DNA of 64,000 nucleotides from the NCBI RefSeq assembly GCF_007747655.1, contig NZ_CP036274.1, positions 124,001 to 188,000 of the forward strand, read 5' to 3'. Every line of letters starts with the position of its first letter. Positions within the stretch are counted from its first letter, which is position 1. The notes below the pieces were generated by a model, which worked only from the letters and a program-made list of their open reading frames with translations, searched no databases and had not been told where the DNA came from. Source of the stretch: Anatilimnocola aggregata. GTDB lineage: Bacteria; Planctomycetota; Planctomycetia; Pirellulales; Pirellulaceae. The translations under genes and the position numbers were made by a program. Shown piece after piece: positions 5,428-34,900 of this stretch.

Positions 5428-5553
5428 ACTGCGCGTATCGAATGATAACAAAGGTGTTTGGCATGTCTCGATTCACACTATGTCCTCGCGTTTGGCCCTC
5501 TTCTGCGGATTACCCGAGAGAGTCGCCGCTCAACTCGCGCCTTCGGCACAGAA

Positions 5554-6618
5554 ATGCTATTTATGAAGACAACCATTTTTCTGACTGCGGTGGTTACGGC
5601 CGCTTTGTTTGGTATTTCCAGCGAGTCCCAGACATGTGCTGATGGGCCCAATCCACGTCTGGCAAACACAAGAGATGCCAAGCTAGACAAGGAATTTGAG
5701 TATCTCATTTTTGATCTCGGCAAGGGAATCTACCTGAAACTCGTGAAAGTGTCAGCCAAAGGGAAGTCGTTCATCATCGGTTCTTCCAAATCAGAACAGG
5801 AAGCGGTGGTGAAGAAACATTTTGACGGCAAACGGCCGGACTGGATCGATTTTGAAGCCGACCATTCGGTCACCTTGACGGACGATTACTTCATCGGCCA
5901 GCGCGAGGTCACCCGCGGTCAGTTCCGACGTTTCGTGGAAGACGCCGGCTACACGACCGATGCCGAGCAGAGCGAAGGGGGATACGGCTGGAATGAAGAG
6001 TTGAAAAAGTTCGAGGGCCGCGACAAGAAATACAGTTGGAAGAACACCGGCGCCCCCGGGCAGTCGGAAGAACACCCGGTAACGAACGTCAGCCGAGCTG
6101 ATGCGAGGAAGTTTTGCGAGTGGCTGGCGAAGAAAGCCGACGGCAAGGTTAGACTGCGCGAAGTTCGATTGCCTGGCGAAGCGGAGTGGGAGTTCGCCTG
6201 CCGGGCCGGCAGCACCGGACGTTTCTGCTTCGGTGACGACGAAGAGAAACTGGCGGAGTATGCCAACGTTGCCGACGCGACGTGGAACGAGAAGTTTCCG
6301 AATCCCAAGGCGATCAAGGCGAAAGACGGCCATGTCTTCGCGGCACCTGTGGGACAGTTCAAGCCGAACGAATTCGGCCTCTACGATATGCATGGCAATG
6401 TGTGGGAATGGTGCGAGGATTTCTTCGGCAAATACTCGGCGCTGCCGAAGGATCGCAACGGTATTCAGAAGAAGAACCAAGGGCAACTGCGTCCGGTGCT
6501 GCGTGGCGGCGCGTGGTATCTCAACCCGGGTTCCTGCCGCAGCGCGAACCGTTACATCGTGGGCGTCGGTTCGAGCCGTTACGGTGCCGCCGGCTTCCGC
6601 GTCGTTGCCGTGCCATAA
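5554..6618 (+). CDS. Secreted SUMF1 (FGE-like) domain protein
   Basis: ATG codons at 5554 and 5563 both give a protein that begins with a signal peptide (MKTTIFLTAVVTAALFG); longer in-frame starts read through non-signal-like sequence. The product is about 354 residues and is almost entirely one SUMF1 domain (residues 40-350), with GQREVTRGQFRRFVEDAGY, LPGEAEWEFACRAGS and LYDMHGNVWEWCEDF. After RGGAW only one cysteine remains (LNPGSCRSANR), so the paired active-site cysteines of genuine FGE are not both present. The domain is often a carbohydrate- or protein-binding module in planctomycetes. It follows the SGNH-like gene by about 130 bases. Confidence 0.8.
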   Translation: MLFMKTTIFLTAVVTAALFGISSESQTCADGPNPRLANTRDAKLDKEFEYLIFDLGKGIYLKLVKVSAKGKSFIIGSSKSEQEAVVKKHFDGKRPDWIDFEADHSVTLTDDYFIGQREVTRGQFRRFVEDAGYTTDAEQSEGGYGWNEELKKFEGRDKKYSWKNTGAPGQSEEHPVTNVSRADARKFCEWLAKKADGKVRLREVRLPGEAEWEFACRAGSTGRFCFGDDEEKLAEYANVADATWNEKFPNPKAIKAKDGHVFAAPVGQFKPNEFGLYDMHGNVWEWCEDFFGKYSALPKDRNGIQKKNQGQLRPVLRGGAWYLNPGSCRSANRYIVGVGSSRYGAAGFRVVAVP

Positions 6619-17969: not shown

Positions 17970-19580
17970 ATGAACCGTCTTCAACTCTCACGTCTCACCT
18001 TGCTGTGCGGAATTGGGCTGCTGCTTGCTTGCACCAGTGCGGTAGCCGACGAGCGGCCCAACATCCTGCTCGTGATGGTCGACGACATGGGCTACTCGGA
18101 CCTTGGCTGTTATGGCGGCGAGGTCCGTACGCCAACACTCGATGCGCTGGCGAATGATGGCGCGCGGTTCGCACGATTCTTCAATTGTGCGCAGTGTTGT
18201 CCGACGCGAGCGTCCCTGATGACCGGGCTTTATCCGCATCAGGCCGGCGTCGGCGACATGAACGAAGAAGGGGCGAACAACGAGTTCTGGAAACGAGTCG
18301 GCTCGCCCGCATATCTGGGATTGAAGTCGCGCGGCATTGTCACCTTGCCCGAAGTGCTGCGTGCGGCTGGCTATCAGACCTTCATGGCGGGCAAGTGGCA
18401 TCTTGGGAAGGCTCCCGAGTGCTGGCCTAACTCACGAGGTTTCGAACGTAGCTTCGCGCTGATCGGCGGCGCCTGCGAGCAGTTCACGGGGTATCGGTCA
18501 TGGCAGCAGAAAGGGCCAATCTCGCTCTTCGTCGAGAACGGGCAGAAGGTCGAAAAGCTGCCGAGCGACTTTTACTCGACCGACACGTTCACCGATTACG
18601 CGCTGCGATTCATCGACGCCGCTGAGCCGGGGAAGCCGTGGTTCGGATACCTGGCATTCACCGCTCCACACTGGCCGATCCAGGCGCATGAAGCCGATGT
18701 CGCCAAATACGCCGAGACTTATGCGGATGGCCCTGCTGCTACTCGGCTGCGACGTTTTGAACGGCTCAAGCAGCTCGGTCTCATGCCTGAAATCGCGCGG
18801 CTGCCGCAGTTGGATGACACGGTCACGCCCGAAGCTCAACAAGCGAAGAAGGAAACTCGCGACCGTTGGATGCGGACCTATGCGGCGATGATTGATCGAG
18901 TGGATCAGAACCTCGCGCGGATCGTGAAGAGGTTGCGCGAACGCGGGCAATTCGACAACACGCTGATCCTGTTCCTCAGCGACAACGGCTCGGACACTGT
19001 ACGCGGGCCGTTGTGGGGGCAGGTGAGCAACACGCCGTTTCGTCGATTCAAAGTGTCGGTCAACGACGGCGGGATCGCCTCGCCGCTCATCGCGCATTGG
19101 CCGAACGGAATCTCGCGCGAGCAACGCGGCCGGATCATCCGCGACATCGGGCACGTCATCGACATTCACGCGACATGCCTCGACGCCGCTCGCACGCAGC
19201 AACCGCAATCGTTCCGCGATCACAACGTACTACCGCCCGAAGGACTGAGCCTGCTGCCCGCGCTCAGCGGCAATGGCTCGCTGCCTTCAGACCGAGTGCT
19301 CTGCTGGGAACGCATGGGCAACGAGGCGGTGCGACAAGGCGGTTGGAAACTCGTGCGTGCTTACGGCGCGGGGACCGAAGAAGGCAACATCACATCGACC
19401 GGCCCGCGCACCGGACAGTGGGAACTCTACGACACGTCGAACGATCCCGGTGAGACAACGAACCTTGCTGCTCAGCAGCCAGAACGAGTGCAGTCGATGA
19501 CTCGATTGTTCGAGTCATGGGCCACTCGCGTCGGCGTTGTCCCGCGCGAAGAGATCGTGAAACTGATGCAGGCGAAATGA
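17970..19580 (+). CDS. Arylsulfatase-type sulfatase (Cys-type)
   Basis: The 536-residue protein has a signal sequence; LLLAC at 17-21 could also be a lipobox. The sulfatase signature C76-C77-P78-T79-R80 followed by ASLMTG is present, so Cys76 is the residue to be converted to formylglycine. Metal ligands sit in VMVDDMGYSDLG (Asp38, Asp39) and FLSDNGSD, and the GKWHLG block is present near residue 140. The family hydrolyses sulfate esters, here probably on algal or animal polysaccharides in the periplasm. Activation needs an FGE; none of the SUMF1 proteins in this window keeps both active-site cysteines. Confidence 0.92.
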   Translation: MNRLQLSRLTLLCGIGLLLACTSAVADERPNILLVMVDDMGYSDLGCYGGEVRTPTLDALANDGARFARFFNCAQCCPTRASLMTGLYPHQAGVGDMNEEGANNEFWKRVGSPAYLGLKSRGIVTLPEVLRAAGYQTFMAGKWHLGKAPECWPNSRGFERSFALIGGACEQFTGYRSWQQKGPISLFVENGQKVEKLPSDFYSTDTFTDYALRFIDAAEPGKPWFGYLAFTAPHWPIQAHEADVAKYAETYADGPAATRLRRFERLKQLGLMPEIARLPQLDDTVTPEAQQAKKETRDRWMRTYAAMIDRVDQNLARIVKRLRERGQFDNTLILFLSDNGSDTVRGPLWGQVSNTPFRRFKVSVNDGGIASPLIAHWPNGISREQRGRIIRDIGHVIDIHATCLDAARTQQPQSFRDHNVLPPEGLSLLPALSGNGSLPSDRVLCWERMGNEAVRQGGWKLVRAYGAGTEEGNITSTGPRTGQWELYDTSNDPGETTNLAAQQPERVQSMTRLFESWATRVGVVPREEIVKLMQAK

Positions 19581-23228: not shown

Positions 23229-23762
23229 ATGTCACACCATTCTCCACCCAATCAGTCACTCCATACGCTGTTTCTGCAGCATGCGGCGACAGTACGAGGC
23301 TTTGTGTTTGGGCTGGTGGCCGATCGGGCGGCGGCGGATGACGTCTTTCAGGAAGTTTTTCTGACTGTTGTTCAGCGGAGCAGCGATTTCCGTCCTGATG
23401 GGAATTTCCTCGCCTGGGTTCGTGGCATCGCACGTAACAAAGTCTTGGAATATTACCGGCGGCAACGCCTCCGAGCGTTGCCGTTTGATGACGAGTTGTT
23501 GGACTTGCTCGTCGAGGCAGTGGATGAACGGGAACCGCAATCGGAACGACGGCGCGAAGCGCTGGCGCGGTGCCTGGAACGGCTGGCGCCGAGGGCCCGT
23601 GAGATCGTCGATTTGAGATATGCAGAACAGCCTTTGAGCCCACCCGAGATCGCCGAGCGACTCGCTTGGACGACCAATGCGGTTCATGTGGCCTTGGCGC
23701 GGGCCAGGGCCTTTTTGCGCGAGTGCACACAGCAAGTACTGTTGACGACTGAGGCATCATGA
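23229..23762 (+). CDS. ECF-family RNA polymerase sigma factor
   Basis: The 177-residue protein shows sigma region 2 (about 10-80) with AAADDVFQEVFLTVVQRSSDF and FLAWVRGIARNKVLEYYRR, and region 4 (about 112-168) with LAPRAREIVDLRYAEQ and IAERLAWTTNAVHVALARAR. It directs core polymerase to a specific promoter set. Its stop overlaps the next start by 4 bases; that gene encodes a membrane protein with an N-terminal anti-sigma-like segment and FecR and WD40 domains. The pair forms a signal-responsive unit at the head of a long co-directional gene series. Confidence 0.93.
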   Translation: MSHHSPPNQSLHTLFLQHAATVRGFVFGLVADRAAADDVFQEVFLTVVQRSSDFRPDGNFLAWVRGIARNKVLEYYRRQRLRALPFDDELLDLLVEAVDEREPQSERRREALARCLERLAPRAREIVDLRYAEQPLSPPEIAERLAWTTNAVHVALARARAFLRECTQQVLLTTEAS

Positions 23763-25564
23763 GCGACGAGCGGCTGCATCATTTGATCGACAGTCTGTTG
23801 GATGGCCAGTTGGCGGAGTCTGACCAGACGGAGTTCGTCGAAGAACTTCGCAGTTCGGCAGAAGCGCGGCGAGTCTATTGGGAACTGATCGAGCAAGACT
23901 CCCTTCTGCAGGAAGTAGTGCGGGAGTCGACTGGTCGCGACCTGGCTCGTTTGGCCTCCGATGATTTGTCGATCGCGAGGTTGTCACAAACGTCGCCATC
24001 CCTGAGGGAAACGCCATCTAGGTTTAAGATCCGGTACTCGCTTACTGCTGGTGCGGTTTTACTGTCGGCAGTCATCGGTGTCGTATTTGCTGGCTCTTTC
24101 TGGTGGCAGAATTCCCTGCCGACGACACCCGCTCCCTCCCAAGGATCTGTGGCGTTGCTCCACTCGCTGACGGGCGACGTGTGGCTCTCGGATCCTCAGC
24201 AGCGAGCGGAAAAGGTGACCTCCGGCCAACAGTTCTTGGCCGGGGACAAATTGCAAGTTGGCGAAGAAGGGGAGGCTGAAGTCTTGCTCGCGGATGGATC
24301 TCGCCTGATCTTGGGCGCCGACTCCGTGTTGCAGTTTCCCTCCGCCGAAGGCGACGGCGAAAGGCGGGTACACTTGGAGCGTGGCGCCGCCGAGGTGGAA
24401 GCAGCAGTTCAATTGCCGGACGATCCCTTGATCTTGAGCACGGAGCAAGCGCGGCTCGTGGTCCTTGGCACGCGCTTCCGCTTGTATGCGGGCGACGGTG
24501 ACTCGCGCGTTGAGTTGGAAGAGGGAAAGGTTCAATTCGAGCGCAGCAGCGACCGCAAATCGGTGGAAGTAACAGCGGGACAGTATGCAGTTGTTGTGGC
24601 GGAGCAGGAATCTACTTCGCCACTCATCGCCCAGCCGCTCGACGCAAACTGGCGTCTGCGGCAAACATTGCTGCGCGCAGGACGTCAGATTGCTTTCTCT
24701 CATCAAGGTTCCCGCCTAGCCACCGCCGATCACGCCCGGATTAAGGTCTGGGACGTTTCCACAGGTGAACTGCAGCACATTTTGAGGACTTCCGCCTGGA
24801 GCGATCGTCTTGCGTTTACACCCTCCGACGATGCGATCGTGGCACTGAGTGAAAGTGGCCAGGCTCTGCTTTGGAGCGTCGGCGAACCAGCCGCGATATT
24901 ATCGGAGTTGAAGTGCGAGCATGGGCAGTTGCGGCGCTGCGATGTGTCACGCAGCGGCAGTTGGTTGGTGCAGTCATCGAGCGTTGACTCGGGTTATTTG
25001 CCGGTCTGGAAGATCGAGCCTGCAGGCACGATTTCACTCGTGCGGTCGCTGACGATGAAGGCAGGAAGCGTGGCCCTGGCGGAAGGCGAGGCTGGGAGCG
25101 ACACTCCGCTCATTGTCGTAGCCAGTCAATGGAACGGCACGACAGTCAAATGGGACGCTTCCTCTGGCAAGGAACTCGCCCGCTACCGATTTGGATCCGA
25201 ATTACACCGCACAGCCCTGTCGCTCGATGGGCGGTTGTTGGCCGGGTTTGGCAATGCCGACGGCTTGCTGCTGGTCGACACCGAAACGGGCGAAACGCGC
25301 AAGCTGTGGCCTCCGGGAAGCGTGCGCGTGAATCGCCTGCGTTTTTCCGCGGATGGACGCGCGGTATTCGCGGCTATGAACGATGGCGTAGCTCGCGCTT
25401 GGTCGACGCACGATGGCCAATCGCTTTTGGTGTTGTCAACCGGCGACTCGCATCTCCTGTCGCTCGACGTTTCCACCGATGGCGTCTGGGTGGCAACTTC
25501 CGGCGATGACGGAGCTGTCAAAATCTGGCAACGCGAATCCCCAACCGCACCGGAAACCAAATGA
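23759..25564 (+). CDS. FecR-WD40 membrane protein, probable anti-sigma factor/sensor
   Basis: The 601-residue product has a cytoplasmic N-terminus of about 90 residues beginning LHHLIDSLLDGQLAESD, typical of the anti-sigma part of FecR-like planctomycete proteins. One transmembrane helix spans about 94-116 (LTAGAVLLSAVIGVVFAGSF). A FecR domain follows (about 130-285; DGSRLILGADSVLQF, ARLVVLGTRFRLYAG). Residues 305-600 are WD40-type repeats (IKVWDVSTGELQ, GAVKIWQRES). It probably binds the sigma factor inside and senses a signal outside through the propeller. It is coupled by 4-base overlaps to both neighbours. Confidence 0.85.
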   Translation: MSDERLHHLIDSLLDGQLAESDQTEFVEELRSSAEARRVYWELIEQDSLLQEVVRESTGRDLARLASDDLSIARLSQTSPSLRETPSRFKIRYSLTAGAVLLSAVIGVVFAGSFWWQNSLPTTPAPSQGSVALLHSLTGDVWLSDPQQRAEKVTSGQQFLAGDKLQVGEEGEAEVLLADGSRLILGADSVLQFPSAEGDGERRVHLERGAAEVEAAVQLPDDPLILSTEQARLVVLGTRFRLYAGDGDSRVELEEGKVQFERSSDRKSVEVTAGQYAVVVAEQESTSPLIAQPLDANWRLRQTLLRAGRQIAFSHQGSRLATADHARIKVWDVSTGELQHILRTSAWSDRLAFTPSDDAIVALSESGQALLWSVGEPAAILSELKCEHGQLRRCDVSRSGSWLVQSSSVDSGYLPVWKIEPAGTISLVRSLTMKAGSVALAEGEAGSDTPLIVVASQWNGTTVKWDASSGKELARYRFGSELHRTALSLDGRLLAGFGNADGLLLVDTETGETRKLWPPGSVRVNRLRFSADGRAVFAAMNDGVARAWSTHDGQSLLVLSTGDSHLLSLDVSTDGVWVATSGDDGAVKIWQRESPTAPETK

Positions 25565-26880
25565 TGGACAGGCTTTCCCCAACTTGCTGCCCCCGTAGCG
25601 AACATGCACTGTCGCGGCGGGCATTGTTGCACGGTGCGCTCGCCGGAGGCGTCGCCTTTGGTGGCTTTGGTCGCTTATTTGCGGACGATCATGCTGCGGC
25701 CGCAAAGAAGAATGAAAAACGGGTGATCCTCGTTTTCATGAGTGGCGGACCGAGTCAATTTGAAACTTGGGATCCCAAACCCGGGCAGCCGACTGGCGGG
25801 CCGCACATTTCGATTCCGACGTCGATCCCCGGAGTGCATTTTGACGAGTACATGCCGAACTTGTCGCGGCTCGCAAACCGCATGGCCACCGTTCGCAGCA
25901 TGACCAGCCGCAATGGCGATCACGACCAAGGCGGCTATATCGCTCAAACCGCCTACAACCCGAGTGCCGTGGTCGTGCCCGCGCCTCATTGGCTTTCGGT
26001 CTGCGCTCATGAGAAGCCCGTGAACGAACCAGGACTGCCGTCGTATGTGATGCTCGGCCGGGACAACTTCGGCACGATGCACGTGCCAGGAGCCGGCTAC
26101 CTCGGCGCAAGATACCAGGCCCTGCACTGTGCCGGGGGTGGGGCCGGTCCGCAGGATCTACCGAAAGCGAGCGAAGAGGCCATTGCGGCCTTCGCGCGAC
26201 GGGAGAAGCTGCGAAGTTCCTTCAGCGAGTCCTTTGCGGCGGGTCGCGACAAGCGGTTCATCGAATCGCATGAGGGCGCGTTCGCGCAGGTTGGTAACCT
26301 GCTGCGTTCCGGCGACTTGTTCGATATCCAGCAGGAACCGCAGCGCGATTTCGACCGCTACGGCAGTAGTCAACTCGGGCGGGATTGCCTGCTCGCCCGA
26401 CGGTTGGTCGAGCGCGGCGTGCCGTTTGTGCGTGTCCAACACCAAAGCGGCCTCGCGTGGGACAAGCATCGCCGCGCGTTTCAAAGCCAACGGTGGATCA
26501 CCAGTGAGTTTGATACGGCGGTTGGTGCCTTGATTGACGACCTCGTCGACCGAGGTCTGTGGTCGAATACGCTGCTGGTCCTGATGGGCGAATTCGGGCG
26601 CACGCCGGAAATCTCCGGCCAGGGGCAGCCAGGACGCAACCACTGGACCAAATGCTGGTCGCTGTCCTTCGGCGGTTGCGGCCTGAAGGAGGGGCTGGTC
26701 ATCGGCTCGACGAACGAAAACGGCACAGACCTCAAGGACCGACCTGTGACGATTCACGATCTGTTCTGCACGTTCTACAAGACGCTCGACATCAATCCGC
26801 ACAAGGAACTGCAGTTCGAAAACCGTCCCATTCCCTTTGTGGAAGACAAACTCGGCAAGCCAATCGCGGAAGTGTTTTAG
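25561..26880 (+). CDS. DUF1501 family protein, Tat-exported
   Basis: The 439-residue protein has a twin-arginine leader (LSRRALLHGALAGGVAFGG). The family landmarks are VFMSGGPSQFETWDPKPGQ near residue 60, QLGRDCLLARRLVERGVPFVRV, and LVLMGEFGRTPEISGQGQPG with a following RNHW. The fold is thought to be related to alkaline phosphatase/sulfatase-like enzymes, but no activity is established. DUF1501 genes usually accompany PSD1 (DUF1549/DUF1553) genes; here the PSD1 gene lies two positions downstream. The start overlaps the FecR-WD40 stop, so the protein belongs to the ECF transcription unit. Confidence 0.92.
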   Translation: MMDRLSPTCCPRSEHALSRRALLHGALAGGVAFGGFGRLFADDHAAAAKKNEKRVILVFMSGGPSQFETWDPKPGQPTGGPHISIPTSIPGVHFDEYMPNLSRLANRMATVRSMTSRNGDHDQGGYIAQTAYNPSAVVVPAPHWLSVCAHEKPVNEPGLPSYVMLGRDNFGTMHVPGAGYLGARYQALHCAGGGAGPQDLPKASEEAIAAFARREKLRSSFSESFAAGRDKRFIESHEGAFAQVGNLLRSGDLFDIQQEPQRDFDRYGSSQLGRDCLLARRLVERGVPFVRVQHQSGLAWDKHRRAFQSQRWITSEFDTAVGALIDDLVDRGLWSNTLLVLMGEFGRTPEISGQGQPGRNHWTKCWSLSFGGCGLKEGLVIGSTNENGTDLKDRPVTIHDLFCTFYKTLDINPHKELQFENRPIPFVEDKLGKPIAEVF

Positions 26881-26896
26881 ACGTCAAAGCAACGAC

Positions 26897-27943
26897 ATGT
26901 CATTTATCATGCCCGGCAAGCTCACCAAAACCGAAAAGACGTACTTCGTCGATGACGGCGCTAAACGTGGTCCGCTGACGATGTTTCGCGTGCGGTTTCA
27001 TCCGACGGGAGACAAACTACTGGCGCTGTGCGTGGACCGCCGCGTCGCCTGTTGGGATTTGAACGGCGAGTTACAAGCCGTCAAAAACAAAAAGGAAAAG
27101 TGCGTTGTCGGTGAGCTTCTTTGTCCGCACGAGATTGGTTGGATTCGCGGTTTCGATATTCATCCGCGCGGCGAGTTTGTGGCGACGGGCGGGTCTGACC
27201 GTACGTTGCGGCTCTGGAAGTGGACCGATGGCCGGCCTGGCGAGAAGCCTTTGCATCAGACTGCGGCCCACGATGGCTGGGTAGAAGCGGTGGCGTTCTC
27301 GCCGGATGGCAACACCCTGGCCACAGCCGGCGCGGATCGTATCGTGAAAATCTGGAGTGCCAGAGAACTCCAACCACAGCACTCGCTGACCGGGCACACC
27401 CGATATGCGGCTGACCTGGTATTCACGCCGGACGGTCGGTTCCTCATCAGCGGCGGTGAAGATGGCAAGTTGATCGTCTGGGACACGCAATCTTGGCAAA
27501 TAGTGCGAACGATTGATTTCGGCGGAGCGAACGATCAATACGGACAGATTCCTCGGCACAGCGGCGTCCATCGCCTGGCCGCTAGTCACGATAGCCGTTG
27601 GCTCGCGGCAGCCGGCGGCGAAAAGCTCGATGTGTTCGATCTCGCATCTGCGGAGCTCGTGGCCAGCGAACGGGTCAGCATGGATGTTGCCTTTCAGCCG
27701 ACCGGCAATGTCCTGATCGGCGGCGAAAGCGAAGTTAAGTCCTGGTCGTATCAGGCCGAGAAGTTCGCTCCGCCTGAGAAGGACAAGAACGGCAAGCCTC
27801 AAGCCGCGAAGAGTATTCCTGGTGAATCGTTGGCGGCGATCAAACGCGGTGATTGGTCGCTCGGGATGCAATTCTCCTCCGACGGAAAGCGTCTGGCGCT
27901 GGGCAAGGCGGACGGCACTGTGGACTTATACGAACTGACCTAG
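26897..27943 (+). CDS. WD40-repeat protein without signal peptide
   Basis: The ATG at 26897 gives 348 residues; an in-frame ATG further upstream would lie inside the DUF1501 gene. At least five WD40 units are visible, such as GEFVATGGSDRTLRLWKW, GNTLATAGADRIVKIWSA and GRFLISGGEDGKLIVWDT. No signal peptide or membrane helix is evident, so the propeller is probably cytoplasmic, in contrast to its exported neighbours. WD40 proteins of this type often sit next to PSD1 and DUF1501 genes in planctomycetes. Its binding partner is unknown. Confidence 0.85.
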   Translation: MSFIMPGKLTKTEKTYFVDDGAKRGPLTMFRVRFHPTGDKLLALCVDRRVACWDLNGELQAVKNKKEKCVVGELLCPHEIGWIRGFDIHPRGEFVATGGSDRTLRLWKWTDGRPGEKPLHQTAAHDGWVEAVAFSPDGNTLATAGADRIVKIWSARELQPQHSLTGHTRYAADLVFTPDGRFLISGGEDGKLIVWDTQSWQIVRTIDFGGANDQYGQIPRHSGVHRLAASHDSRWLAAAGGEKLDVFDLASAELVASERVSMDVAFQPTGNVLIGGESEVKSWSYQAEKFAPPEKDKNGKPQAAKSIPGESLAAIKRGDWSLGMQFSSDGKRLALGKADGTVDLYELT

Positions 27944-27996
27944 GGCGGAAGCATGTGTGCAGGAATGTCGCAACGAGACTGAAGACCAAGCGAACA

Positions 27997-29661
27997 ATGC
28001 GAAGAATCTCAAAAACACTCGGCGCAGCCATCATCGGCGGAATGTGTTGGTTCGCAAGCCTGGCCGCATCCGCCGCCAATCCCGCCAGCGGCTTGATCGA
28101 TACCGAAATTCAAGCAGCCCTGTCCGCAAAAGAGCTGACCCCCGCGCCGCGGGCGGAAGACTCCGAGCTGCTGCGCCGGATTTATCTCGACGTGCTGGGA
28201 CGGATCCCGACCTCCTCCGAAGCCGCACAATACCTGGCCGATTCCAGCGCTGACAAACATCATCGCCTCATCGACGCACTCCTCGCCCATGACGAGATGC
28301 CCGCCTATTGGCGCACGGTTTTCGACGAGTGGTTCAATAGCGCAGTCGGGGAACGCGACTTCGGCCGCGACGGATTCTTGGTTTACCTGGAAGAGGCAAT
28401 CAAGACGAACAAGCCGTGGGACCGCCTCGCCCACGAGATGCTGGTTCCGGATTTGAAAGACGAAAAACAGCGGCCTGCTGCTTACTTCTTGGCGATCCGC
28501 GTGCGCGGGGGCGATAACGACGCCAAGGTCGACGCCCTGACTAGCGGCGTGGCCAGCGTCTTCTTTGGTGTTCAGTTGCAGTGCGCGAAATGTCACGACC
28601 ATCCCTTCGTCGATCAATGGAAGCAGGACCACTACTACGGTCTGGCTGCCTTTCTGGGCCGCACCCAAGAAGCCCGAATTGAGAACACGCCGATCGTCAA
28701 GGAAAGGGCAGAGGGGGAAGTCAAGTTCGTAACGACAGCCCAAGAAGAGAAGACTGCGAGGCTCATGTTCCTGGATAGTCGCATCCTTGACGAACCCCCG
28801 CCCCCAGCAGATCGTGGCCAGTGGTACTCAAAAGCGAATGGTGGCTTGCCAGATGCGCCCTACTTCAGCCGACGCGCGACTCTGGCGGAATATGCCTTGA
28901 AGGCCGACTCACCGTTTTTCAAGCGCGCCATTGTGAACCGGATGTGGAAGCAATTGATGGGGCGAGGACTGGTCGAACCGGTCGATCAAATGCACGTAGC
29001 CAATCCAGCGTCCCACCCCGTGCTGCTCGATCATTTAGCCGATGACTTCGCAACGAGTGGCTTTGACCTGCGCCGGCTCATGGCCGAAATTCTGCACAGC
29101 GAGGCATATTTCCGCAGTAGTCGCTGGACATCCACCGCAGAGCGGCCCCGGGACAGCGACTACGCAACCGCAATCCTGAAGCCGCTCACTCCCGACCAAC
29201 TCGCCGTGAGTGTTGGTCTCGCCACGGGGCACTTTGAGCAATCGCGCGCCAAGTTCGAACGTGAAAAAAAGAATCGCAAGATCGAGGAGATCACACCGGC
29301 CATTTCCCGCGCCATGTACTGGCGAGAGCGTGACGTTCAGGACTTTGCTGCTCGCTTTCGTACCGGCGGCGAGAGCTTCGAGGCCAACGCGGCTCAGGCG
29401 CTATTTTTGTCGTACAACAGCCTCATCGAAAAGCAATTGCAGCCGTCCGCAGGCAATCTCATCGATCGGCTTGCCAAACAAGCGGACAACGATGCGGCGG
29501 TGAGCGAGGCGTTCCTTACTATCTTGTCACGTGCACCTCGCGACGATGAACGCAGCCGAGCAGTCGAGTTCCTGACCAGCGGCGATTCGTCTCGACCAGC
29601 CAAGTGTAGGGATCTTGTGTGGGCGGTGATCTGCAGCAGCGAATTCCGTTTTAATCATTAG
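27997..29661 (+). CDS. PSD1-type protein (DUF1549/PSCyt2 and DUF1553), lacks PSCyt1
   Basis: The ATG at 27997 starts a signal peptide (RRISKTLGAAIIGGMCWFAS); a longer in-frame frame reaches into the WD40 gene and is unlikely. The 554-residue product goes directly into DUF1549 (LLRRIYLDVLGRIPTSSEA; C196-AKC-H200 then DHPFVDQW) and DUF1553 (RRATLAEYALKADSPFFKRA, then NRMWKQLMGRGLVEPVDQMH). The N-terminal PSCyt1 cytochrome domain found in longer relatives is missing. One c-type heme motif is present. It is probably periplasmic and partnered with the DUF1501 protein at 25561-26880. Confidence 0.9.
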   Translation: MRRISKTLGAAIIGGMCWFASLAASAANPASGLIDTEIQAALSAKELTPAPRAEDSELLRRIYLDVLGRIPTSSEAAQYLADSSADKHHRLIDALLAHDEMPAYWRTVFDEWFNSAVGERDFGRDGFLVYLEEAIKTNKPWDRLAHEMLVPDLKDEKQRPAAYFLAIRVRGGDNDAKVDALTSGVASVFFGVQLQCAKCHDHPFVDQWKQDHYYGLAAFLGRTQEARIENTPIVKERAEGEVKFVTTAQEEKTARLMFLDSRILDEPPPPADRGQWYSKANGGLPDAPYFSRRATLAEYALKADSPFFKRAIVNRMWKQLMGRGLVEPVDQMHVANPASHPVLLDHLADDFATSGFDLRRLMAEILHSEAYFRSSRWTSTAERPRDSDYATAILKPLTPDQLAVSVGLATGHFEQSRAKFEREKKNRKIEEITPAISRAMYWRERDVQDFAARFRTGGESFEANAAQALFLSYNSLIEKQLQPSAGNLIDRLAKQADNDAAVSEAFLTILSRAPRDDERSRAVEFLTSGDSSRPAKCRDLVWAVICSSEFRFNH

Positions 29662-29675
29662 ATGGCGAGTTCGGC

Positions 29676-31292
29676 ATGGATTCTCTAAGACATGGCGCGC
29701 GGTTGACAGCGATCCTGCTTACGTTAGGGATCTCGTCACTCGTGTCCGCTCAGGACCGGACAGCGCTGGTCATCGCTAATTTCGACTATGGCGAGCATCA
29801 ACTAACGCAGGTCAAAACAGATGCGGCAACGGTCGCCGAGGCGTTGCGAAAGGAAGGCTTTCGCGTGACGGTGGCCGAGAACATTTCCGGCAAGGAACTG
29901 AAAAACACCGTCGAGAAGTTTGCCCGCAGCACGGTGACTCGCGGTATGGCGATACTTTATTTTGCCGGTCTTGGCGGGCAGTATCAGACAAGCAACTCGG
30001 AAGGCGCTTTACGGAACCACCTTCAAGGTGCGGGCAAGCCGCAGGACTCCCGTAACCCGGAACGGGAGTTCATTCCCCTTCCGGATATCGTCAAGTTGCT
30101 TAGTGATCACTCTGCGTGTACCTGCAACCTAGTGATCTTGGATGCGGCAGGGACGAATCCGTTTTTTGCTGGCCGAACGAATCAGCCCTCTGGTTTGGCG
30201 GCAGTCCAAGCGACTGACCTGCCCAGCGATACTGCCGTGCTGCTGGCAGCCACGCCAAACGTAACGCTGGAGCAGCCTTCCCAGCTCGGGGCAGCATTCG
30301 CCAAGCACCTGCCGCGTGGACGCGATTCAGTCGACAAGGTGCTTACCGCGATAATTGACGAAGTGAGACAGAAGAGCGGTGAGAAGCAAGTACCAACCGC
30401 TACGAAGAGCAAGCTGGTTGCAACCGCCTCGTGGGAACTCGGGGCAAATGAACTTTTTCTGGAAACCCCGTTGGCTCGCGACGGGGAGCGTCCCGGACAA
30501 CATTGGATCAACTCGGCGGGGATGGTGTTCTGTTGGTGTCCGCCGGGACAATTCTTGATGGGAAAAGCGGCGCAAGATGGTCAGGCCGACTTTGAAGACG
30601 CCAAACCGGTCGAGGTCACGCTGACGAGCGGTTTTTGGATCGGCAAATACGAGATTACGCAACTGGAAGCGGAACGACTGAAGGTCGGCGCGGGACGTTA
30701 TCCGTTCCCCGGCAAGCATTATCCCTTGCATATGATTCAGCAGGGTCAGGCGTCCAAATTGATATCGGCCTTGAACGACCAGGAGCGGAAGGCGGGACGA
30801 TTGCCCGATGGTTGGGAATACGCGCTGCCCACGGAAGCCGAGTGGGAATACGCCTGCCGAGCCGGAACGACAACGCGTTACGCCTTCGGCGACGATGAGA
30901 GCCAGTTGTGCCGCCATGCGAACTACGCCGACAGAAGTCTGCTGGAAAGCGATGGGGCGATGCAGTTTGCAGACGCGCGGTTCGACGACGGCTTTGCCAA
31001 AGCGCTGGCTCCCATCGGCAGCTATCAGCCGAATATGTGGGGATTGCATGACATGCATGGCAACGTCGCTGAGTGGTGCTTAGACCGGTATCTGCCGCAG
31101 TTGCCCGGCGGAGAAAATCCGCGGATCGACGAGAAGAACAAAGCGGCTGCTCCAGCCGGGATCATCCGCGGCGGCAGTTGGTGCAGTACGGCCGAGTACT
31201 GCGAATCGGCGTTTCGGAACTCAGAGTTCTCCGGCGGAAACGCAAAAGGCCGGGATTACATCGGATTCCGGCTTGTACTGAGGAAGAAGTAG
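29676..31292 (+). CDS. Caspase-like domain (catalytic residues replaced) fused to SUMF1 domain
   Basis: The 538-residue protein has a signal peptide ending near SLVSAQ (about 1-25). Residues 27-245 resemble the C14 caspase/metacaspase fold: RTALVIANFDYGEHQL, an expected xGHG strand that reads YFAGLGG (Leu99 in place of the catalytic His), and an expected LDAC that reads ILDAAGTNPF (Ala158 in place of the catalytic Cys). The protease dyad is therefore lost. Residues 270-537 are a SUMF1 domain (LPTEAEWEYACRAGTTTRY, MHGNVAEWCLDRY). After RGGSW the cysteines are spaced C-x5-C rather than the usual C-x4-C. A regulatory or binding role is more likely than catalysis. Confidence 0.85.
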   Translation: MDSLRHGARLTAILLTLGISSLVSAQDRTALVIANFDYGEHQLTQVKTDAATVAEALRKEGFRVTVAENISGKELKNTVEKFARSTVTRGMAILYFAGLGGQYQTSNSEGALRNHLQGAGKPQDSRNPEREFIPLPDIVKLLSDHSACTCNLVILDAAGTNPFFAGRTNQPSGLAAVQATDLPSDTAVLLAATPNVTLEQPSQLGAAFAKHLPRGRDSVDKVLTAIIDEVRQKSGEKQVPTATKSKLVATASWELGANELFLETPLARDGERPGQHWINSAGMVFCWCPPGQFLMGKAAQDGQADFEDAKPVEVTLTSGFWIGKYEITQLEAERLKVGAGRYPFPGKHYPLHMIQQGQASKLISALNDQERKAGRLPDGWEYALPTEAEWEYACRAGTTTRYAFGDDESQLCRHANYADRSLLESDGAMQFADARFDDGFAKALAPIGSYQPNMWGLHDMHGNVAEWCLDRYLPQLPGGENPRIDEKNKAAAPAGIIRGGSWCSTAEYCESAFRNSEFSGGNAKGRDYIGFRLVLRKK

Positions 31293-33413: not shown

Positions 33414-33505
33414 GCTACCTCAAACCAATCATCGTGTCAGAAAACGCCGAATTACTTTTTCCAACCTACACACGCCCAAAGCCTTCTACCTTAAGGACAC
33501 AGAAT

Positions 33506-34900
33506 ATGACCATTCATCGACGTGACGCACTCAAAGGAATTTCGCTCGGCGCAGGTTCACTGGTGCTTTCTCAAGTCTTGTCCCGCCTTGAAGCCCACGC
33601 GGCTGGAACTTCGTCGCAGCCCAAGAGATTTGTCTTCGTGGTTGAGAGCAACGGTGTGCGGCCGGAGCAGATTTCGCCAGTGGGGCTAAAACGGGACTCG
33701 CGACAGGAGCGTCCGGGCGCGCCGGGTGACTACGTGGATGTGTCGCTCGCCGATCGCGAATTGCAATTCTCGCTCGAACCGCTCAAGCCATGGAAAGATA
33801 AGCTGACGATCGTCCAGGGGTTGTCGGGGCGCGTGTGCGGTGGTGGGCATTCGAACAATTTTCAAGCACTCGGAGCATTCGGCGGCGGTCGCGCTAATGG
33901 CGGCGAAAGCATGGCCGTGCTCGGCGAAACGATCGACGGCGCGCTGGCCAAAACTATCCCCGGCATCTTCCCGCACATCGGCCTGGGAATGTCGAAGCGA
34001 GTGGAAAACAACGTGATCTACAACATCTCGGCCCTGGAAAAGGACCGCCCGCTGCCGACGATGTGCAAGCCCGATCAGGCCTACGCGGCCCTGTTCGGCA
34101 GCGTCGCCAATGGAGCCGCCAAGGAGGAATTTGCGGCGAAGAACAACCTGCTCGACTTCCTCCGCCGCGACATCAAGAAGGTGCAGGGCGAGTTGGTCGG
34201 ACAGGAACGCGAGCAATTCGACGCCTATCTCGAATCTTTCGAGACTCTCCGCAACCGTCAAAGCCGCCTCAACGAGATCGAGCACACGCTCCGTGAGAAA
34301 GGTCCGGCGCCGACCGACAAGTACACATCCGCGGTCGAAACGGACCGGCTGGATGCCCAGTTCGATATCGGCGCCGCGTCCCTTATCTGCGGCTTGACCA
34401 ATGTGCTCACTCTTTCATCGGCCGCCGGCATCCGCGATTTCGACGTCACTTTCAAAGGCTTGGGCATCAACTTGGACAAGCACTCTATTGGCCACGGTGG
34501 CACCTATGAGGGCAAGAAGTGGGACGAACTATACAACATCATCCGCCGCTACCACATGGATCTGATCGCCGGCCTGGTCAAGAAGCTGGAGGCGGTTCCG
34601 GAAGGGGACGGCACGATGATGGACAACACAGTCATCCTCTACCTCAGTGACGGCGCCGAAGCCCATCACAGCCGCTGCTGGGAATGGCCGATGGTCATGA
34701 TCGGCAATATGAACGGCAAGCTGAAGACAGGCCGCTACGTCGATTACCCAGGCTACGGCCACAAGGGGCACCGCACCACGGCCAACATGTACGTCACGTT
34801 GCTGCAACTCGCCGGCTCGCAGCGGACCAGCTTCGGCATGGCTGATCCCAACCTCAAGGATCTCGACCAGCACGGCCCGTTGGAAGAGCTACTGGTGTAG
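33506..34900 (+). CDS. DUF1552 (HXXSHH) family protein, Tat-like leader
   Basis: The ATG at 33506, preceded by AAGGA, gives 464 residues with an IHRRDALKGISLGAGSLVLS leader. Family features include LTIVQGLSGRVCGGGHSNN, LDFLRRDIKKVQGELVGQER and HSIGHGGTYEGKKW in the place of HxxSHH. The motif is altered (HSIGHGG), the most divergent of the set together with the paralog at 50445. It is paired with the divergent heme protein upstream, which suggests that the two co-evolved as a sub-family. Function unknown. Confidence 0.85.
   Translation: MTIHRRDALKGISLGAGSLVLSQVLSRLEAHAAGTSSQPKRFVFVVESNGVRPEQISPVGLKRDSRQERPGAPGDYVDVSLADRELQFSLEPLKPWKDKLTIVQGLSGRVCGGGHSNNFQALGAFGGGRANGGESMAVLGETIDGALAKTIPGIFPHIGLGMSKRVENNVIYNISALEKDRPLPTMCKPDQAYAALFGSVANGAAKEEFAAKNNLLDFLRRDIKKVQGELVGQEREQFDAYLESFETLRNRQSRLNEIEHTLREKGPAPTDKYTSAVETDRLDAQFDIGAASLICGLTNVLTLSSAAGIRDFDVTFKGLGINLDKHSIGHGGTYEGKKWDELYNIIRRYHMDLIAGLVKKLEAVPEGDGTMMDNTVILYLSDGAEAHHSRCWEWPMVMIGNMNGKLKTGRYVDYPGYGHKGHRTTANMYVTLLQLAGSQRTSFGMADPNLKDLDQHGPLEELLV

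Follow-up and report, generated by a model that had tools for sequence, protein, structure and literature searches.

The open reading frame (ORF) P0001, from a 64,000-nucleotide stretch of Anatilimnocola aggregata DNA (hereafter the window; positions 124001-188000 on one contig of 9.0 Mb), encodes a caspase-like domain fused to a SUMF1 domain, and the caspase-like domain has lost both residues of its catalytic His-Cys dyad. This loss is fixed in one group of planctomycete relatives, whose dead caspase domain is under purifying selection and whose genes are linked to, and diverge together with, genes encoding a PSCyt1/DUF1592/DUF1588 protein and a DUF1552 protein. On balance, and at slightly better than even confidence, we take P0001 to be a non-proteolytic accessory subunit of a PSCyt-DUF1552 unit, with a binding or scaffold role. 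The features of P0001 are the following:

29676-31292, forward strand: P0001 ORF, 538 aa, ATG start
29676..29750, forward strand: signal-peptide-like N-terminus of Sec type, residues 1-25, judged by eye on the translation
29757..30416, forward strand: pseudo-caspase domain, residues 28-247 (PF00656, MALT1 alignment, AF2/Foldseek, dead relatives)
29970-29972, forward strand: Leu99 codon, in place of the catalytic His
30147-30149, forward strand: Ala158 codon, in place of the catalytic Cys
30486..31289, forward strand: SUMF1/FGE-like domain, about residues 271-538, with an FCWCPPG motif (PF03781, alignments, cysteine count)

Loss of the catalytic dyad in P0001 and its relatives

Pfam and Foldseek both place a caspase p20 fold in P0001. 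Peptidase_C14 (PF00656) matches residues 28-247 with an expectation value (E) of 1.7e-16 and a score of 61 bits, where the cut-off is 21, and p20 and p10 are not separated within this match. The AlphaFold2 (AF2) model, built from 21 sequences, has a mean predicted local distance difference test score (pLDDT) of 64 overall. Its caspase core is fairly confident, with means per ten residues of 71-94 over residues 21-120, 63 over 121-130 and 73-86 over 131-160; residues 193-273 are of low confidence. Foldseek matched the caspase half to MALT1 (best E 3.4e-8), caspase-1, caspase-9 and Geobacter GSU0716, with modest TM-scores of about 0.3-0.5, normalised to the target.

An earlier note on this DNA had claimed that both catalytic residues are missing while the landmarks of the caspase fold remain, and both claims were borne out. 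In a phmmer alignment to MALT1 (3v4o), Leu99 stands at the His column and Ala158 at the Cys column: LYFAGLGG of P0001 lies opposite LYYAGHGY of MALT1, and VILDAA opposite VFLLDMC. We take these catalytic columns to be His415 and Cys464 of MALT1. With a p20 domain in which both catalytic residues are substituted, P0001 qualifies as a pseudo-orthocaspase. Among 10 aligned members, P0001 included, the caspase half holds no invariant or 90%-conserved His or Cys, so there is no sign of a dyad supplied from elsewhere, and an alternative dyad was rejected on this ground. PF00656 has nine matches in the genome of P0001; of the eight others, seven (all except L017) were scored, and all seven carry His and Cys.

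A protein search of 60 genomes, including that of P0001, found full-length relatives in three others. Scans with caspase profiles gave a match in 17/199 genomes of the family, 15/296 of the order, 36/397 of the class and 30/392 of the phylum; these samples overlap, the matches include intact caspases, and the profiles were derived from dead members, which biases the search towards them. As these genome scans score the top few candidates per genome, absences are lower bounds. In total, 25 caspase genes of the dead group, including P0001, have a readable context, and they come from 18 planctomycete genomes. None of the 25 has an intact dyad: 18 have neither residue, five have the Cys only and two have the His only. 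The residues at the His and Cys columns are as follows (L numbers denote loci; the alignment of the Cys column is approximate in the short Gln-type members):

Leu-Ala, four: window, L051, L047, L254
Leu-Cys, two: L243, L251
Leu-Gly, one: L180
Tyr-Cys, three: L177, L178, L179
Tyr-Gly, L052; Tyr-Ala, L249; Tyr-Val, L048; Phe-Gly, L053: one each, in the first-listed gene of each locus
Gln-Pro, two: L052 (second gene), L050
Gln-Gly, one: L049
Lys-Pro, two: L241, L242
Lys and a gap at the Cys column, one: L287
Asn-Ala, L182; Arg-Gly, L246; Ala-Ala, L253; His-Gly, L245; His-Pro, L255: one each

Across the 26 aligned rows of the dead group, the His column holds Leu (7), Tyr (6), Gln (4), Lys (3), His (2), Phe, Asn, Ala and Arg (1 each), and the Cys column Ala (8), Gly (6), Cys (5), Pro (5), Val (1) and a gap (1). 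Gly98 is retained in all 26 rows and Asp156 in 24. Such diverse substitutions at the dyad, next to the kept Gly98 and Asp156, indicate that the fold was kept and catalysis was not. Arg28 is found in 24/26 dead-group rows versus 11/45 intact rows. The loss is shared by the relatives; in the data examined, neither a dyad at other positions nor an intact linked homologue was seen, in line with the earlier note.

A quick, unrooted caspase tree, with branch support by the Shimodaira-Hasegawa-like approximate likelihood ratio test (SH-aLRT) alone, was built from 76 of the 130 rows of the caspase table, namely the linked rows identified up to that stage, all SUMF1 fusions bar those named next, and 14 hand-picked other caspases. 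The fusion or linked rows outside the tree are six duplicate views and L148, which has a stop within its frame. A branch with SH-aLRT 97 has 26 dead rows on one side (24 linked rows, L232 and L250), and the same 26 rows were united at SH-aLRT 94 after the columns around the dyad had been removed. L232 was later found to be linked too, its contig being that of L287; L250, which lies at a contig start, is counted in the tree and stands outside the 25 genes with context. On the other side of the branch, 45/50 rows are intact, among them 34 of the 36 SUMF1 fusions. Broken dyads outside the linked group occur in L073 (Asn-Cys), L109 (His-Tyr), L181 (Val-Thr), L171 (Thr-Ser) and L231 (Val-Gly), which represent other losses. 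Outside the group too, locus L247 (genome G643) has a dense array, about 16 kb long, of six caspase genes whose dyad columns hold His and Cys; four of the six also match SUMF1.

For the dead caspase domain, the ratio of nonsynonymous to synonymous substitution rates (dN/dS) was 0.18 (dS 0.29), 0.21 (dS 0.64) and 0.16 (dS 1.12) in the three pairs with the least saturation, and 0.09-0.27 in four further pairs at dS 1.4-2.5, rows with saturated dS being excluded. These values indicate that purifying selection acts on the domain.

The SUMF1 fold was also found in P0001: PF03781 (FGE-sulfatase, Pfam) matches at E 1.4e-32, and Foldseek returned PvdO, TvpA and FGE, with PvdO 5hha as the best fold match (E 8.5e-11). 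At the sequence level, PorK/GldK and PvdO are the best matches of this half, and Treponema TvpA matches as well. The active-site cysteine pair of FGE follows the pattern RGG-x3-C-x4-C. P0001 reads RGGSWC-x5-C, and in RGGSWCSTAEYC the first FGE cysteine site is occupied by Ser. The altered cysteine spacing described in the earlier note was thus seen, but it is not peculiar to P0001: none of the 172 scored SUMF1 ORFs has the FGE pair (190 lie in the fetched loci, and the RGG motif was not found in 18), so this spacing is ordinary. On its cysteines, the reading of the SUMF1 domain of P0001 as an FGE was rejected.

Linkage to PSCyt and DUF1552 genes

All 25 genes with readable context adjoin a linked-subfamily PSCyt1/DUF1592/DUF1588 gene, a DUF1552 gene or both, genes in other genomes being named by their best blastp match to window proteins. 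This linkage across the phylum is the strongest clue, and it had been missed in the earlier note. Among the window proteins, the neighbours match the copy beside P0001 best, scoring far higher than against its paralogs there; the DUF1552 margins range from 853 versus 73 bits (L051) to 255 versus 59 bits (L182, where the gene is cut by the contig). A single neighbour is visible at five loci, mostly at contig ends (L241, L246, L251, L182, and L287). Gene order is variable, the pseudo-caspase gene being placed before, between or after the PSCyt and DUF1552 genes. At L052 (1943-4974), two dead caspase-SUMF1 genes of separate subgroups stand in tandem, each with linked neighbours of its own.

Outside the group, no linked-subfamily gene was found within 4 kb, in a context reaching up to contig ends, at 14 fusion genes (12 intact): L054, L071, L073, L109, L131, L244, four genes of L247, L252, L257, L258 and L259. 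For many intact fusions, the visible flank is just about 1-1.5 kb. In most of the dead group the SUMF1 domain opens with GMVF-C-W-C-P, with the variants FRWC, FVWC and FCWS. FCWCP is present in 19/32 SUMF1 ORFs at most 4 kb from a linked-subfamily gene versus 5/158 without such a neighbour visible; two of these five (L166 and L188) come from linked loci seen over a short length, and a few genes are seen twice. One of the other three, L210/L286 (genome G062), is an intact-dyad caspase-SUMF1 fusion with FCWCP, on a 4.7 kb contig without a linked gene, so FCWCP is not confined to the dead group. This fusion is possibly a relative of the ancestral form.

Starting from the DUF1552 subfamily, a search independent of the dyad gave matches in 32/392 genomes at E 1e-55, among the 50 matches listed. 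We fetched 20 further regions from these matches, setting aside those that had been read before, the lowest-scoring ones and a second G476 copy. A linked PSCyt1-PSD4 gene lies near the DUF1552 gene in all 20.

The three genes also diverge together. Over 17 complete triplets, the distance matrix of the pseudo-caspase correlates with those of PSCyt (r 0.86) and DUF1552 (r 0.80), and PSCyt with DUF1552 (r 0.91); each correlation was reached in 0/2000 permutations. Within one genome, different sets diverged in all three genes. Separately, L249 (G843) and L052 (G021), from different classes, share 78% identity in the pseudo-caspase, 64% in PSCyt and 76% in DUF1552, a likeness that suggests horizontal transfer of the set and that contamination may also account for.

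The surroundings of P0001 in the window are as follows:

23229..23762, forward strand: ECF-type sigma factor, named by eye on the ORF translation, heading a co-directional run
23759..25564, forward strand: FecR-WD40 protein (PF04773 E 5.5e-17, WD40 families)
25561..26880, forward strand: DUF1501 protein (PF07394 E 7.9e-79)
26837..27943, forward strand: WD40 protein (PF00400 E 4.1e-39)
27853..29661, forward strand: PSCyt2/PSD1 (DUF1549/DUF1553) protein (Pfam), ending 14 bases before P0001
31296..33413, forward strand: partner 1, PSCyt1-PSD5-PSD4(DUF1592)-PSCyt3(DUF1588)-PSD2 (Pfam), with two CxxCH haem c motifs
33434..34900, forward strand: partner 2, DUF1552 (PF07586 E 4.1e-46), with a twin-arginine-type N-terminus by eye and an HSIGHG motif

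As stated in the earlier note, the gene run is led by the ECF-like ORF; the genes after it are co-directional and closely packed and form a putative operon. Homologues of the ECF ORF lie near L051, L047 and L049. With the listed TTG as its start, the PSCyt2/PSD1 ORF overlaps the WD40 gene before it, and its true start is probably downstream, at the ATG of MRRISKTLG. The same window holds a sulfatase with a CCPTR motif (17970-19580), presumably of the formylglycine type, and SUMF1 proteins at 897-2714 and 5458-6618.

Two CxxCH motifs were present in 17/17 PSCyt proteins examined, the second one reading CWxCH, and PSCyt1-PSD4 gave weak matches to the PDB, mainly to cytochrome c. Among 17 DUF1552 proteins examined, 11 carry H-x-I-G-H-G and two HHTGHG, in the place of the family name motif HXXSHH, and four match neither pattern. 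The AF2 model of DUF1552 is poor (pLDDT 49), and a Foldseek search with it gave nothing with E <0.001; a profile search of the PDB gave nothing convincing.

Possible roles of P0001

P0001, a probably secreted pseudo-orthocaspase with a non-FGE SUMF1 domain, most likely neither cuts proteins nor makes formylglycine. Its N-terminus resembles a signal peptide by eye, and those of its relatives are also hydrophobic; P0001 is thus probably secreted, as the earlier note had it. The PSCyt1/DUF1592/DUF1588 protein, with its two haem c motifs, and the DUF1552 protein would form the core of the gene set, and P0001 would be the third, accessory member. Most likely, the caspase fold binds proteins or forms a scaffold and the SUMF1 domain provides a further binding module, both together physically interacting with the PSCyt-DUF1552 pair to dock, assemble or target it, in the periplasm or the outer envelope. 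Since two binding-type folds are inherited together with PSCyt and DUF1552, a docking or assembly subunit is the simplest role. A broader proposal, which we put forward more tentatively and at somewhat less than even confidence, is a novel three-component envelope system of the Planctomycetota, in which a docking subunit derived from a caspase, recruited once and dead in all lineages examined, was added to the PSCyt-DUF1552 core. In such a system, the docking subunit would spread with its partners via descent and horizontal transfer.

Several observations weigh against the first of these proposals. Asp49, an acidic pocket residue, is present in 13/26 dead-group rows versus 42/45 intact caspases, so a conserved peptide-binding pocket is unsupported (on the MALT1 alignment columns, Asp49 and Asp156 presumably lie opposite the pocket residues of MALT1). 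Branch support for the dead group without the dyad columns falls just below the 95 mark, parts of the SUMF1 half are of low confidence in the AF2 model, and some of the co-divergence reflects the common ancestry of linked genes. The set can do without the caspase domain: none was detected in the 20 regions reached from DUF1552, and comparison detected no SUMF1 gene in 16 of them. L270 and L276 have an FCWCP-type SUMF1 gene without a detected caspase domain. In the two other regions, another SUMF1 gene adjoins the pair (L284) or three SUMF1 ORFs lie about 2.5 kb off (L275). The P0001 genome itself has three sister PSCyt1-PSD4/DUF1552 pairs without P0001 (L266, L267, and L268). At L266, the PSCyt2/PSD1 and PSCyt1-PSD4 genes that flank the missing position directly abut, which indicates a gain or loss of P0001 in one piece. 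From these sister pairs and the regions without P0001, the PSCyt-DUF1552 pair is the core and P0001 is accessory.

The earlier note had suggested a binding or decoy role. Non-proteolytic binding fits the data, and nothing that we found points to a decoy. As a decoy or regulator, P0001 would dampen the cell's active caspases by binding their substrates or partners. Pseudoenzymes are known as regulators in general, and the genome has eight other PF00656 loci, with intact dyads in the seven scored. However, the dead group tracks PSCyt-DUF1552 genes, and Asp49 is relaxed in half of its members; we consider this role unlikely.

It is also improbable that the dead caspase is an arm holding a substrate for the SUMF1 domain to modify, the substrate being a sulfatase-like neighbour (DUF1501, DUF1552 or the sulfatase encoded at 17970-19580). 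SUMF1 belongs to the FGE fold family, and DUF1501 has a weak PDB match to N-acetylgalactosamine-6-sulfatase (E 0.0022), but the FGE cysteine pair is missing, and DUF1552 has no sulfatase match, though from a poor model.

We give equally little credit to P0001 as a sensor of antigens or phages, from a conflict system with FGE-type sensors beside caspase effectors. The SUMF1 half does match Treponema TvpA, and PMC10907252 discusses the FGE domains of diversified systems as sensors that resemble C-type lectins. P0001, however, is apparently secreted and not cytosolic, and its constant partners are cytochrome-type and DUF1552 proteins. As no PADLOC family matches P0001 or either of the two partners, identity with a known defence protein was rejected. 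One scan of viral contigs found no viral relatives of P0001.

A residual enzyme acting through another nucleophile or base is very unlikely: a rearrangement is compatible with the AF2 model, and two linked members retain the His and five the Cys, but the 10 aligned members have no invariant alternative His or Cys and the dyad is substituted in many ways. That P0001 is a decaying pseudogene is scarcely credible given the long open frames of most relatives, the dN/dS well below 1 and the persistence across the phylum, in spite of the loss of both catalytic residues and of L245, in which a stop splits the caspase part from the SUMF1 part. The accessory binding or scaffold subunit remains the reading that we prefer.

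Comparison with known systems

MALT1 paracaspase is the nearest solved structure to the caspase half of P0001; MALT1 has an active dyad and no SUMF1 domain. PorK/GldK and PvdO share the SUMF1 fold with P0001 and belong to other systems, the type IX secretion system ring and pyoverdine maturation, respectively. To our knowledge, neither contains a caspase domain.

Three published data sets are also close, and our statements on them refer to the parts of these papers available to us. Klemencic et al. (2019; PMC6426788) described pseudo-orthocaspases with a substituted His-Cys dyad, Tyr-Ala being among the pairs. Like the group of P0001, these have a p20 caspase fold with a substituted dyad in conserved clades. 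However, 90% of them belong to alphaproteobacteria or cyanobacteria and the stem "Planctomycet" is absent from the main text, whereas the present group is planctomycete. Their pocket Asp pair is described as highly conserved, whereas here one of the two is found in 13/26 rows, and their commonest pair is Tyr-Ser, compared to Leu-Ala (4/25) here.

Asplund-Samuelsson et al. (2012; PMC3501461) found FGE-sulfatase on 33/671 caspase homologues, the same combination as in P0001, and listed a Trichodesmium fusion of Bac_PepC14 and FGE-sulfatase as dyad Negative. In planctomycete caspase homologues, the dyad was kept in only 64%. A separate dead group or a linkage to PSCyt/DUF1552 does not appear in what we have of that paper, and here the unlinked fusions are mostly intact. 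He et al. (2017; PMC5615132) reported that PSCyt3 genes pair with members of a functionally uncharacterised family, which we infer to be DUF1552. FGE is not in their main text, and no caspase was found there.

No paper tying caspases to PSCyt or DUF1552 genes was found in open-licence PubMed Central. Pseudo-orthocaspases, caspase-FGE fusions and one dyad-negative fusion were thus known already; we did not find this group or its linkage described. The dead group represents a protease fold under selection after the loss of its chemistry, and our results suggest that the caspase fold has been reused as the binding part of an undescribed three-protein system. Pseudo-caspases are discussed in PMC6426788 mainly with regard to photosynthesis and cell death, whereas the present group is tied to planctomycete-specific cytochromes. 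PMC5615132 describes the function of the cytochrome gene set as unknown, and the linkage provides a handle on it, with the secreted-looking, catalytically silent subunit as a bait.
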